Part shown: positions 29,975-34,990 of the stretch, piece after piece | Position numbering within the stretch: position 1 is the stretch's first letter | How the letters are laid out: the number at the start of each line of letters is the position of its first letter | Origin: Phycisphaeraceae bacterium | GTDB lineage: Bacteria; Planctomycetota; Phycisphaerae; Phycisphaerales; UBA1924 | Length of the DNA: 64,000 nucleotides | Direction: 5' to 3' | Assembly: GCA_021299385.1 (NCBI GenBank) | Contig: JAJTGZ010000008.1 | Coordinates: 1 to 64,000, forward strand | The notes under the pieces: generated by a model | The model's database searches: none | Seen by the model: the letters and a program-made list of their open reading frames with translations, nothing else | Told to the model about the DNA's origin: nothing | Translations under genes and position numbers: made by a program

Positions 29975-30565
29975 TTGGAGCAGCGGACAGATGAACAGCT
30001 TTTAGAGGCTTATCGGGGTGGTGAGGCCTCAACGCTCGAGGTTTTGGTCCGCCGGCATCACGATGACCTGCTCCGGTTTTTGTACCGCCTGACAGGTTCG
30101 CGGACCTTGGCCGAGGACGTCTTCCAGGAGGCGTTTTTACAGGTCCACCTCTCGGCGAGCACCTTTGACACATCCCGGCGGTTTAAGCCTTGGCTTTTTA
30201 CGATCGCGGCGAACAAAGCCCGGGACATGCTGCGTAAGAACGCCCGCCGAAGGGCCTTGGACCTTGATGCACCGGTCAGAGGCTCAGAGGGTGAGGTTAC
30301 GTTCGTGGACCTCATGGCCATCGAAGGCCCGTCGCCGTCGCAGGCCATGGACGTAACTGAACGGGACGCAAAGGTGCAGCAGGTGGTCTCGGAGTTGCCG
30401 TTGTTGATGAGAGAAATTTTGCTCTTGGCCTACTTCCAGAAGATGTCCTATGCGCAGGTCGCCGAAGCACTGGATATCCCGCTGGGGACCGTCAAGAGCC
30501 GTTTGCACTCGGCCGTGGCGGCCTTCGCCAAGAAGTGGGAAGCGGCTAACGAGGTCGATGTGTGA
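29975..30565 (+). CDS. ECF RNA polymerase sigma factor
   Basis: A 196-residue sigma factor. Region 2 has LVRRHHDDLLRFLYRLTGS, LAEDVFQEAFLQVH and FKPWLFTIAANKARDM; region 4 has MSYAQVAEALDIPLGTVKSRLHSA. The start is TTG 29975 with GGAG 9 nt upstream; no in-frame ATG fits before region 2. The next gene, a membrane protein, starts 64 nt downstream and is probably its partner. Confidence 0.9.
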   Translation: MEQRTDEQLLEAYRGGEASTLEVLVRRHHDDLLRFLYRLTGSRTLAEDVFQEAFLQVHLSASTFDTSRRFKPWLFTIAANKARDMLRKNARRRALDLDAPVRGSEGEVTFVDLMAIEGPSPSQAMDVTERDAKVQQVVSELPLLMREILLLAYFQKMSYAQVAEALDIPLGTVKSRLHSAVAAFAKKWEAANEVDV

Positions 30566-32146: not shown

Positions 32147-32271
32147 TGCGCCCGACCGGAGTAAACCTGCGACAGGGATAGCTCTCTACCTGTTCGGCGT
32201 GAGCACACCCGACGATTGTGCATCGTGCAAGCGAAGTTCGCATAAAAATCGTGCCCGGGGCGTGCCCAGTT

Positions 32272-32341
32272 TGCGGGGGGCAGCCTGATAGCACGTCGGC
32301 CGATAACCCAATAGTCCTGGGCTCAAACCCCGGCCCCGCTA
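32272..32341 (+). pseudogene. Degenerate tRNA-fMet-like sequence
   Basis: The segment aligns by eye to initiator tRNA: GCGGGG / CCCCGC acceptor stem, AGC-ACGTCGG and ATAACCC around the anticodon arm, and T-arm CTGGG-CTCAAAC-CCCGG. It has lost about three nucleotides of the D-stem, one nucleotide of the anticodon stem, the invariant G19, T33 and the CAT anticodon (GAT at that place). It is followed 8 nt later by a strong terminator hairpin. It is probably a decayed tRNA gene rather than a working one. Confidence 0.4.
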
Positions 32342-32348
32342 TATGCAT

Positions 32349-32385: not shown

Positions 32386-32421
32386 GCCAGTTGCACGCGG
32401 CGACTGCACCTCACGAAACGA

Positions 32422-32451
32422 CCACGGCCCGGGCGTGTGCCCGGGCCGTGG
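32422..32451 (-). terminator. 13-bp perfect hairpin at the 3' end of the first PEP-CTERM gene
   Basis: CCACGGCCCGGGC and GCCCGGGCCGTGG are separated by 4 nt, 40 nt beyond the stop codon. Diverged copies occur at 33823-33851 and 34842-34871 after the second and the decayed gene. The T-run on the minus strand is short (GTCGTTT). Confidence 0.6.
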
Positions 32452-32490
32452 AGGATTGAACTTAGGGTGTGCGGTCAGAGCCGCCCGAAC

Positions 32491-33492
32491 TCAGCGGCGG
32501 CGACGCGCGGCGAGCAGGCCGCCGAGGCCGAGCAATACCGCGGTGCCGGGGGTGGGGATGATCACGAAGTCCGCCGAGACGAACATGCCGAAGACGTTGT
32601 CGTCGTCGGACGGATTGAGCGTGTTCAGCTCCACCCAGGTATCGCCGAGGGAGATAAACGGGTTGGCATCGACCACGTTGCCAAGCGCGAGGTTGTAGAG
32701 CTCGTCGTCGGGATTCGGGTTGGGCTCGAGCGGACTCGGATTCGCGAACGGGTCTACGTTGGCCGGATTGTCGCCTATACCGCCGACAGTGATCAGGTTT
32801 CCGTTCGCAGAGGTCTGGCCCGAGATCCTATCGTCGGCCCCGCCGGCACTGGAGGACAGGCGACGAGCATTCGGATTGCTGCTCGTGCGCACATCGATCA
32901 GGGAGAATTGAGGGGCCCCGCGGGCCGGTTGAACGCTGAAGCTCGACGCGAGCGACATGAGCATGTTTCCACCACTGTAAGGATTCGCCAAGTTGAACCG
33001 CGTGACGCCGCCGGTCGTCGCGAGCTCCCCGTCGTAGATGAGCGCGGAGCGCCCTTGCGTGGACGCATTGCTGTAGGCGACCACCAGCACGGATCCGTCG
33101 TGGTCGCCGTGCTCCTGAAGGTTGAAGTTGTACAGGCCACCGGGGCCGCCATCGACCACCGAGCGGACGACGCTCGTCACGTCGTACCGAATGGTCGTCG
33201 CAGGGTTCCTGTTCGGGCCAAGAAGCGTGCCACCGCTCGGATTGAACCGCGTGCCGTTGAATGTCGTCGAATCGACCGTAGAGCGGTTCCAAATGCTCGC
33301 GGTGTACAGATATGCTCCGAGCACCTGAGAGCCAACAGGCACGTTGGCCTGCACCTGTCCGCTTCCGGCGCCCAGCGTGCCAAGCCCGTCTATGCTGAGA
33401 TCAGCGTTAACGAAGTATTGACTGAGACGAAGGTCGCCAAAGGCCGGGAAAGTCGCAAGAGCCAACGCACCGACAGCAACCCAAATCTTCAT
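32491..33492 (-). CDS. PEP-CTERM sorted secreted protein 1
   Basis: A 333-residue exported protein. The signal peptide is MKIWVAVGALALATFPAFG, and the C-terminus is the PEP-CTERM sorting signal (IPTPGTAVLLGLGGLLAARRRR across its last 22 residues, read as Pro motif, hydrophobic span, Arg cluster). Such proteins are processed by an exosortase, which is not in this window. The mature part is Ser/Asn/Gly-rich with no recognised domain. The ribosome site GGAGAGAGT precedes ATG 33492, behind a structured leader and a strong promoter. The gene is the first of three repeated units. Confidence 0.85.
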   Translation of the reverse strand: MKIWVAVGALALATFPAFGDLRLSQYFVNADLSIDGLGTLGAGSGQVQANVPVGSQVLGAYLYTASIWNRSTVDSTTFNGTRFNPSGGTLLGPNRNPATTIRYDVTSVVRSVVDGGPGGLYNFNLQEHGDHDGSVLVVAYSNASTQGRSALIYDGELATTGGVTRFNLANPYSGGNMLMSLASSFSVQPARGAPQFSLIDVRTSSNPNARRLSSSAGGADDRISGQTSANGNLITVGGIGDNPANVDPFANPSPLEPNPNPDDELYNLALGNVVDANPFISLGDTWVELNTLNPSDDDNVFGMFVSADFVIIPTPGTAVLLGLGGLLAARRRR

Positions 33493-33504
33493 ACTCTCTC
33501 CTCT

Positions 33505-33561
33505 GCCGCCCTTCGGCGGCGATGTTTGCTGGCGACTCGCGCACGGCACCAGCCGTGCGCG
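33505..33561 (-). promoter_or_regulatory. Structured 5' leader of PEP-CTERM gene 1 (two hairpins)
   Basis: Hairpin A pairs 33505-33510 with 33515-33520 (GCCGCC / GGCGGC, tetraloop), 6 nt upstream of the ribosome site. Hairpin B pairs 33538-33547 with 33552-33561 (10 bp perfect). Both are kept in the second gene's leader although the sequence has drifted. Confidence 0.55.
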
Positions 33562-33579
33562 GAGAAAATCCGCCACGGA

Positions 33580-33608
33580 ACTATACGCGGCCCACCCTGC
33601 CCTGTCAA
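33580..33608 (-). promoter_or_regulatory. Sigma-70-type promoter of PEP-CTERM gene 1
   Basis: On the minus strand TTGACA (33608-33603) and TATAGT (33585-33580) are 17 nt apart. It is about 90 nt upstream of the start codon and fits the housekeeping consensus closely. Confidence 0.8.
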
Positions 33609-33619
33609 TCCAAACTCCG

Positions 33620-33855
33620 AAAGAATTGTTGCTGGCAAGAGGGGAAATTCCGGTTGGAGCGGTCGGCTGGCCGAATCGAGGCCAATCCGGGTTATCGGAT
33701 GCAACTTGCGGATGGGCGTCGTGGTCTTCGTGAGAGGCCTCGGCATCTTGTCGACGTCTCGACTTCTCGCTCTGGCGAGCAACTGGGTGAACAACTCCGT
33801 TCCGGGCCGGTTGATCAACGACTACGGCCCGAGCGTGTGCCCGGGCCGTGGAGGA
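33620..33855. repeat. Upstream half of repeated PEP-CTERM unit, copy 1
   Basis: About 235 nt matching 34640-34876 by eye, including GGTTGGAGCGG, GGCTGGCCGAATCGAG, CCGGGTTATCGG and the 3' hairpin. Together with 33493-33619 this accounts for the whole gene-free stretch 33493-33890. Confidence 0.75.
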
Positions 33856-33890
33856 TTAAACTCATGTTGCGAGGTCAGTGTCGGACAAAC

Positions 33891-34505
33891 TCAGCGGCGA
33901 CGTCTCGCGGCGACGAGGCCGCCGAGGCCCAGCAGCGCGGCTACGCCGGGGGTGGGGATCAGCGTGTAAGTGAAGTTCGAGACCGTTGCACTCGCAACTT
34001 CAGAAACCCCGTTGACTTCGATGCTCATTCCAGCGATCTCGCTCAGGTCAAAGTCGGGACCAATGGTAGCGACGCTGAAGTTCAGGGTCTGGGTGCCGGT
34101 GCCGGACACAGACACGGGCGAACCAAGCTGAATGAGATCATAGCCATTCGCATCAAAGAGGTACCAGTTCAACCGGACTTGGCCGGTCACGGCGATGTCG
34201 AAAGACAGCGACGCGATCCCTGAGAGATCGATCGTCGAGCCGGCACTGTTCTGCCGATAGCCGAGCTTGGCGATGCCATCTGGGTTGGTGAAGGCGAACG
34301 TCCACGCGCCACTCCCGACGGAGGCGGTTGAGTTATTGAACCGCTGGACCCGCCGCTCCGCAAAGAGCGAACCGGGGATGCTTGACCAAGGCGCGCCAGC
34401 ACCGCCGCCAGCCTGCGCGGTCGTGAACGAATCCACAATACCCGCCTGCGCAAAGCCCGCGATGGCCGCGAGGGCCAACGCACCGATAGCGATAGAAGTC
34501 TTCAT
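33891..34505 (-). CDS. PEP-CTERM sorted secreted protein 2
   Basis: A 204-residue exported protein. The signal peptide is MKTSIAIGALALAAIAGFAQA and the C-terminal signal is IPTPGVAALLGLGGLVAARRRR in reading order, nearly the same as in protein 1. The mature domain (DSFTTAQAGGG, FAFTNPDGIAKLGY, LNWYLFDANGYD) reads as a beta-sandwich of carbohydrate-binding type, with no firm family. AAGGAGAGAGT precedes ATG 34505. The mature parts of the two proteins are unrelated, so only the leader, signal and tail are shared. Confidence 0.85.
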   Translation of the reverse strand: MKTSIAIGALALAAIAGFAQAGIVDSFTTAQAGGGAGAPWSSIPGSLFAERRVQRFNNSTASVGSGAWTFAFTNPDGIAKLGYRQNSAGSTIDLSGIASLSFDIAVTGQVRLNWYLFDANGYDLIQLGSPVSVSGTGTQTLNFSVATIGPDFDLSEIAGMSIEVNGVSEVASATVSNFTYTLIPTPGVAALLGLGGLVAARRRR

Positions 34506-34518
34506 ACTCTCTCCTTCT

Positions 34519-34574
34519 GCCACCCTTCGGCGGCGATATTTGTCTGCGGATCACGCACGGCGACAGCCGAGCGT
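34519..34574 (-). promoter_or_regulatory. Structured 5' leader of PEP-CTERM gene 2 (two hairpins)
   Basis: Hairpin A (34519-34524 with 34529-34534) has a G-U change relative to copy 1. Hairpin B (34553-34561 with 34566-34574) has a different sequence but still pairs with one mismatch. Confidence 0.5.
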
Positions 34575-34596
34575 TAGGAAAATCCGAACAAGGAAA

Positions 34597-34625
34597 ATAA
34601 TACGCTGGACCCGGCCCCCCGTCAA
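34597..34625 (-). promoter_or_regulatory. Sigma-70-type promoter of PEP-CTERM gene 2
   Basis: On the minus strand TTGACG (34625-34620) and TATTAT (34602-34597) are 17 nt apart, in the same place as in copy 1. Confidence 0.75.
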
Positions 34626-34639
34626 CCCAAAATCCGTAT

Positions 34640-34876
34640 AAAATTGTCCCTTGGTAAGATGGGCAACTCCGATTGGAGCGGCCGGCTGGCCGAATCGAGA
34701 CCAATCCGGGTTATCGGGTGCGACGCTGCGGATGGGCGACGCGGTCTTCGTGAGTGGCTTTTGCATCCTGTCAACTTCTGGACTTCTCGCTTTGGCGAAC
34801 GGCTGGTTGGACAACTCTGTTCTGAGCGGGCTGATCAACGACCACGGCCCGATCGTGTGCCTAGGCCGTGGAGGAA
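34640..34876. repeat. Upstream half of repeated PEP-CTERM unit, copy 2
   Basis: Matches 33620-33855 by eye, ending in a diverged 3' hairpin (34842-34871). The gene-free stretch 34506-35394 therefore holds leader, promoter, this repeat, a decayed PEP-CTERM tail and one doubtful small gene. Confidence 0.75.
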
Positions 34877-34910
34877 TGAACCCAAGGTGTGCGGTCAAAG
34901 CCGGGCAAAC

Positions 34911-34990
34911 TCAACAGCGGCAACGGGCCGAAGCAAAGCCGGCGAGGGCAAGCAGCCGGCGGCAGCCGCGCCGAGGACAACAAGTTGACC
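34911..34990 (-). pseudogene. Decayed third PEP-CTERM gene (tail only)
   Basis: Behind the third hairpin copy, the minus strand reads RRLLALAGFASARCRC and a stop, aligned with the LLGLGGLVAARRRR tail of the two intact proteins. Spacing to the hairpin is the same as in the intact genes. No open frame or signal peptide extends upstream. Confidence 0.5.

Follow-up and report, generated by a model that had tools for sequence, protein, structure and literature searches.

The 64,000-nucleotide stretch of DNA analysed here (the window) belongs to a draft genome of 2.63 Mb in 111 contigs that is close to Phycisphaerales. On its reverse strand are two genes for PEP-CTERM proteins, the presumptive substrates of an exosortase, each preceded by a promoter and by a structured RNA leader. 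The leader, which recurs at PEP-CTERM genes of other genomes, is the subject of this report. The genes and their flanks are arranged as follows, with the -35 and -10 elements assigned from the sequence and by promoter scoring:

34837..34960, reverse strand: third unit, comprising a degraded tail and a 3' block remnant
34620..34625, reverse strand: -35 element TTGACG of gene 2
34597..34602, reverse strand: -10 element TATTAT of gene 2, spacer 17
33891..34505, reverse strand: gene 2, 204 residues, with signal peptide, mature part without assigned domain, and PEP-CTERM tail
33817..33893, reverse strand: 3' block of gene 2, with terminator-like hairpin (33822-33851)
33603..33608, reverse strand: -35 element TTGACA of gene 1
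33580..33585, reverse strand: -10 element TATAGT of gene 1, spacer 17
32491..33492, reverse strand: gene 1, 333 residues, with signal peptide, weakly DUF3344-like mature part (below cut-off), and PEP-CTERM tail
32417..32493, reverse strand: 3' block of gene 1, with stop codon and terminator-like hairpin (32422-32451)

A preliminary description of this locus proposed two intact PEP-CTERM genes with unrelated mature proteins, common flanks and promoters of the form TTGACA-N17-TATAGT and TTGACG-N17-TATTAT, and all of this holds. BLASTP of one protein against the other is significant over the last 25 residues only, and the mature proteins are, as judged from their sequences, unrelated. Both N-termini are hydrophobic signal sequences on inspection. 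Gene 1 scores 16.2 bits against TIGR02595 (cut-off 16) and gene 2 scores 13.8 bits, under the cut-off, with the same kind of tail, IPTPGVAALLGLGGLVAARRRR; taking the TIGR02595 criterion as a C-terminal segment with a PxP-type motif, a hydrophobic helix and a basic end, we assigned both genes to the class. The genome encodes one exosortase (PF09721, 147 bits), so that both genes combine a signal peptide with an exosortase in the same genome. The promoter hexamers of the leader loci score as sigma-70 type. Promoter, leader, signal peptide, tail and 3' hairpin all fall within a single contiguous repeat of 513 base pairs (bp) with 77% identity, intergenic DNA included. Within the window, then, tandem duplication is the first explanation of the sharing. 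Selection on the leader structure can be tested only with homologues from other genomes.

The leader occupies the ~85 nucleotides (nt) between the -10 element and the start codon, and consists of a P1 stem around a P2 hairpin, followed by a P3 hairpin, an extended Shine-Dalgarno sequence GGAGAGAG and the start codon. The preliminary description had recognized a structured leader here, correctly, but had divided it into two hairpins where we find three helices:

34506..34591, reverse strand: structured leader copy 2, covariance model match 85.7 bits (in training set)
34553..34574, reverse strand: copy 2 P2 hairpin, ACGCTCGGC-TGTC-GCCGTGCGT, with one internal U-U mismatch
34519..34534, reverse strand: copy 2 P3 hairpin, GCCGCC-GAAG-GGTGGC
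34507..34514, reverse strand: copy 2 extended Shine-Dalgarno, GGAGAGAG
33493..33577, reverse strand: structured leader copy 1, covariance model match 97.6 bits (in training set)
33530..33575, reverse strand: copy 1 P1 closing stem, TGGCGG/TCGCCA around P2, starting ~5 nt past the -10 element
33539..33560, reverse strand: copy 1 P2 hairpin, GCGCACGGC-TGGT-GCCGTGCGC
33505..33520, reverse strand: copy 1 P3 hairpin, GCCGCC-GAAG-GGCGGC, adjoining the Shine-Dalgarno
33494..33501, reverse strand: copy 1 extended Shine-Dalgarno, GGAGAGAG

In most copies with a recognizable promoter P1 starts 5-8 nt past the -10 element, which would place it at or beside the expected transcript start. The second hairpin had been said to differ between the copies and still to pair. 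For two copies this is a weak argument: P3 shows a single C-to-U difference that turns a G-C into a G-U pair, and in P2 one pair is compensated (G-C to A-U) while another is broken. Taken by themselves, the window copies thus offer thin evidence for conserved structure.

The expectation that further leaders would turn up at PEP-CTERM genes of the genome and its relatives was borne out. Genomes and loci are given here under working labels (G052, G067, L056 and so on), C18 being a contig of the window's own genome. That contig carries a third copy, upstream of a gene for a PEP-CTERM-tailed protein with an FGE-sulfatase domain, and a DNA search of relatives found copies in G052 (two, G052a and G052b), G067 and G021. 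Covariance models were run on overlapping samples of 163 genomes from the family, 400 from the order and 397 from the class. They brought in two copies in G172, one in G015, three in G220 and, from another family, one in G107, which makes 14 confident loci spread over 8 genera and 2 families. All 14 are at PEP-CTERM genes or their remnants, with no confident match elsewhere: 11 are upstream of open PEP-CTERM frames, one of which (G021) is cut off by the contig end; in G052b the frame of the PEP-CTERM gene is disrupted; and the other two loci are remnants that have a frame resembling a signal peptide. Matches under ~30 bits were mostly chance hits within coding sequence, and weak matches at PEP-CTERM genes of G037, G161 and G688 are not claimed as homologues. 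The same leader is present in the records Phycisphaerales bacterium UBA4658 and Phycisphaeraceae CoA8_V101, and a pattern scan of GTDB contigs returned two already known Phycisphaerales matches and one unrelated chance match. Rfam has nothing close to gathering score in the window, and at the other leader loci it matches only a tRNA and a TPP riboswitch, both away from the leader. The leader is a real, unrecorded structured 5' untranslated region (UTR), an element of a kind that is already known. Its distribution is patchy, since most genomes of the family, including three others of the same genus, have no confident covariance match. Within its own genome it precedes 3 of ~28 PEP-CTERM genes, and we therefore rejected the idea of a homologous leader before all of them. 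By eye, an IS3-like transposase frame lies closely downstream of the G107 unit (L169).

With these homologues the proposal of selection on structure gains substance. The seven sequences found independently of the model have 93.7% of cells paired and two-sided changes at 3 pairs, where shuffles give 0.8 (9/500 reach this number); sliding the partner cuts pairing to 25-51%, or to 25-53% when the larger alignments are included. For 12 distinct sequences the values are 94.2% and 4 two-sided pairs against 1.4 (9/500); with two weak model-found matches added (G037 and G161, which enter alignment A2 and are left out of A1 and A3) they become 94.9% and 7 against 1.8 (0/500). RNAalifold recovers P1, P2 and P3 from the leader alignment unaided. 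Compared with dinucleotide shuffles, folding has z values of -3.3 (copy 1), -2.6 (copy 2) and -3.7 (C18 copy) and is weakly better in G052a (-1.95); the leaders of G052b, G067 and G021 fold no better than their shuffles. The leader has a mean identity of 0.62, compared with 0.57 for the signal-peptide codons, 0.41 for the promoter stretch and 0.40 for the DNA further upstream; in the mature part, or cargo, identity is at chance level (0.28, against 0.26, range 0.22-0.29, for shuffled cargo). Because it is untranslated and yet better conserved than both the coding sequence that follows and the promoter that precedes it, the leader is under selection. These data bear on the alternative that descent alone is at work, with recent duplication and flank recombination carrying along a leader whose hairpins have no function as RNA. 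Such an origin would account for the single contiguous repeat that holds everything common within the window, and for the high-identity flanks beyond the leader that different genera share. Yet the leader is the best conserved segment, its pairing survives base changes, it still aligns in G021 and G052b where the upstream DNA has stopped aligning, and PEP-CTERM leaders of unrelated sequence have the same hairpin docked on the Shine-Dalgarno (see below). We consider descent alone quite unlikely.

Copies of the leader have moved between genes and genera in company with the promoter and the secretion signal, in many cases also with the tail, and this sharing stems mainly from duplication and recombination of flanks. 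The 3' block of ~140 bp (tail codons, stop and hairpin) shows ~75-94% identity between genera and is spread more widely than the leader. Between G067 and G172/G052 the 5' flank is 93% and the 3' flank 84% identical with no cargo in common, and the proteins of G067 and G172 match significantly over the tail alone. Since the same flanks hold different cargo, mature domains are exchanged between fixed blocks, so that unrelated surface proteins change places between constant expression and sorting modules. G067 carries the cargo of window gene 2 (58% identity), and G172 carries that of a G163 unit having a different leader (48% identity); the C18 cargo is related to PEP-CTERM genes of G172. A sharply bounded 1.4-kb segment containing a PEP-CTERM gene and its flanks is 96% identical between G052 and G172 (L056 6594-8004 and L097 3620-5032), which are placed in different genera, and its surroundings are unrelated. 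G172 and G220, also from different genera, have 4.3 kb in common at 97.8%, which may reflect binning errors or very recent transfer. The whole of this cassette comparison draws on metagenome-assembled genomes. Many cassette copies sit at contig ends, as expected of repeats. In G093, eight contigs (C1, C3, C12, C14, C25, C37, C38 and C56) have PEP-CTERM tails in their first 75-400 bases, as if repeated tail blocks had broken the assembly. Close to the third cassette, on contig C18, are long degenerate tandem repeats that are 65-70% alike (L059 2553-5530).

Directly behind the 3' block in G052, G067 (a PF00589 match) and G172, and in degraded form in G220, lies a tyrosine integrase gene or fragment:

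L057 7155-8549, reverse strand: tyrosine integrase gene or fragment
L056 6545-7114, forward strand: tyrosine integrase gene or fragment
L097 near 3797, forward strand: tyrosine integrase gene or fragment
L101 near 4756, forward strand: tyrosine integrase gene or fragment

Directly downstream of gene 1 the window has a degenerate tRNA-Met-like sequence with its own terminator (32271-32346, forward strand), the only trace in a tRNA search of the window, which found no intact gene; in G065 the corresponding position, behind a PEP-CTERM 3' block, is occupied by an intact tRNA-Met (L163 6920-6995, reverse strand). The integrases, the bounded segment and the tRNA-Met gene or remnant would all fit a scheme in which the hairpins are DNA sites, integron-like, for a recombinase that moves the cassette. 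Against this, the ends of the shared segments differ between pairs and miss the leader hairpins, the G052, G067 and G172 cases resemble one lineage, and the distance from P3 to the Shine-Dalgarno is fixed, which a DNA site would not need. This makes recombinase sites very improbable. A search of viral contigs for the exact 3' hairpin gave no match.

The Shine-Dalgarno sequence of the leader is found at a wider set of genes. GGAGAG lies within the last 22 nt before 9 of 25 other PEP-CTERM genes of the window's genome, compared with 0 of 178 crudely called control genes after filtering (2 of 248 before), and of five GGAGAGAG-N0-6-ATG sites in this genome three start real genes, all three PEP-CTERM. 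Across 31 genomes the pattern GGAGAGAG-N0-5-ATGA has ~125 sites against 9 for the reversed pattern. The 90 sites that we read comprise 32 PEP-CTERM starts (L302 having been reassigned to this group), 20 other frames with a signal-like N-terminus, 9 other frames and 29 without a long frame. GGAGAGAG is in this sense a signature that flags PEP-CTERM and other exported genes. Several of the exported proteins without a PEP-CTERM tail (L311, L310, L317, L247 and L259) end in dockerin-like GDxDGDGxVDxxDL repeats.

A docked hairpin, defined as a perfect stem-loop of at least 5 kcal/mol that ends 0-8 nt before the Shine-Dalgarno, is present, in genomes across the family, at 15 of 32 other GGAGAGAG PEP-CTERM genes against 4.5 expected (maximum 13 in 1000 shuffles, p=0.001). 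Windows further upstream of these genes have 6 each, which is chance level, and there is no excess at other exported genes (2/20) or at non-gene sites (5/29). The docked stems vary in sequence from gene to gene. The G163 units, whose leader is of unrelated sequence, repeat the whole layout of promoter, 5' stem-loop, GAGCC-GAAA-GGCTC hairpin and GGAGAGAG. It is possible, and we suggest it tentatively, that exosortase substrates are true exchange cassettes, in which mature domains would be swapped within and between genera, with the help of the integrase, between fixed 5' and 3' modules, and the docked-hairpin leader would mark the class for common control of stability or translation.

What the leader does may be approached through a known system. 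The E. coli ompA 5' UTR protects its mRNA through a 5' stem-loop and a strong Shine-Dalgarno (Emory and Belasco 1990, Emory et al. 1992, Arnold et al. 1998, all cited through PMC7509114). The two are alike in having a stem-loop apparently at the very 5' end (in our case from the predicted start) and a second element at a strong Shine-Dalgarno, and both belong to mRNAs for surface or outer-membrane proteins. The likeness is one of predicted layout, with no claim of sequence homology, and the planctomycete leader, unlike that of ompA, is common to many unrelated genes. We give a probability of roughly 55% to the reading that the leader is a constitutive, ompA-like stabilizing and translation 5' UTR carried by a recombining cassette. 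The cassette would consist of a 5' block (promoter, ~85-nt structured leader, Shine-Dalgarno and signal-peptide codons) and a 3' block (PEP-CTERM codons, stop and terminator-like hairpin) with exchangeable mature domains between them. The P1/P2 stem-loop at the extreme 5' end would hinder 5'-end-dependent decay, and P3, docked on a Shine-Dalgarno that is strong and rich in purines, would leave the ribosome site accessible and protect the mRNA. Abundant surface proteins would in this way be made from a stable, well-translated message, and ligand control would play no part. What we have shown is that the leader is conserved, that its stems pair, that it is specific to PEP-CTERM genes, that the blocks are shared and that cargo is exchanged.

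Several points weigh against this assignment. We infer the start site, the stability, the effect on translation and the abundance of the proteins. The single-sequence minimum-energy fold departs from the consensus in G052a, G052b and G021, adding coding sequence alters the fold of several leaders, and one P2 column is frequently mispaired. Two-sided changes are few, the shuffle controls ignore the relatedness of the sequences, and the sequences after the first seven were picked by the model itself, which favours structure. Docked hairpins occur at fewer than half of the GGAGAGAG PEP-CTERM genes, and in the window's own genome they were not in excess at PEP-CTERM genes over control genes (p=0.84). 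Those controls were GC-richer and partly mis-called, and we therefore changed to dinucleotide shuffles and GGAGAGAG-anchored genes; the own-genome shuffle test gave 8 against 3.3 (p=0.007), the GGAGAGAG-anchored test having been devised after the GGAGAGAG signal had been seen. Finally, nearly all genomes used are drafts or metagenome-assembled genomes.

The preliminary description had suggested a cis-regulatory RNA of exosortase substrates. Of this, a conserved structured 5' UTR at PEP-CTERM genes stands, and its generality to the substrates does not. Regulation by a signal finds no backing, as nothing shows sensing as opposed to constitutive stabilization or translation. A true cis-regulatory RNA, in which a ligand, protein or small RNA opens or closes the Shine-Dalgarno and so coordinates a set of exosortase substrates, would agree with a multi-helix leader conserved even in loop and junction stretches. 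It would also agree with the pyrimidine stretch UUUUCUCC inside P1 of copy 1, which pairs fully with GGAGAGAG; given a transcript start at GCGG, the Shine-Dalgarno-closed fold is the minimum-energy fold of that copy. However, the closed fold is the minimum in copy 1 only, the docked hairpins elsewhere have no common sequence and are a poor fit to a common aptamer, no regulator or ligand was found, and only three of the genome's PEP-CTERM genes carry the leader. On balance we think such regulation unlikely. CsrA-type control through GGA in loops was also considered and rejected, as the P3 loops have no GGA.

What is new lies in the leader, in the signature at the Shine-Dalgarno and in the exchange of cargo. 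Little is known of the expression of exosortase substrates outside Proteobacteria, and a concrete structured leader is now available. Proteobacterial PEP-CTERM genes have a conserved upstream region with a sigma-54 site, linked to PrsK/PrsR, and further undiscovered cis-motifs were expected outside that phylum (Haft et al. 2006, PMC1569441). Both cases involve a common cis-element before many PEP-CTERM genes with unrelated mature parts, but the earlier element is a motif in DNA that comes with a sigma-54 promoter and is confined to Proteobacteria (PMC1569441), whereas here a sigma-70-like promoter is joined to a structured RNA leader in Planctomycetota. Like the riboswitches and leader RNAs of Rfam, the leader is a structured 5' UTR with covariation before one functional gene class; unlike them it is small, matches no Rfam family and has no ligand found for it. 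The tails of TIGR02595 type and the single genomic exosortase (PF09721) are those of the PEP-CTERM/exosortase (EpsH) system, although the present finding concerns an mRNA leader and a DNA block structure and not sorting. Post-transcriptional control and domain swapping of planctomycete surface proteins become directly testable. A few kb from the PEP-CTERM pair, at window 29975-30565 on the forward strand, lies a gene for an ECF-type sigma factor.

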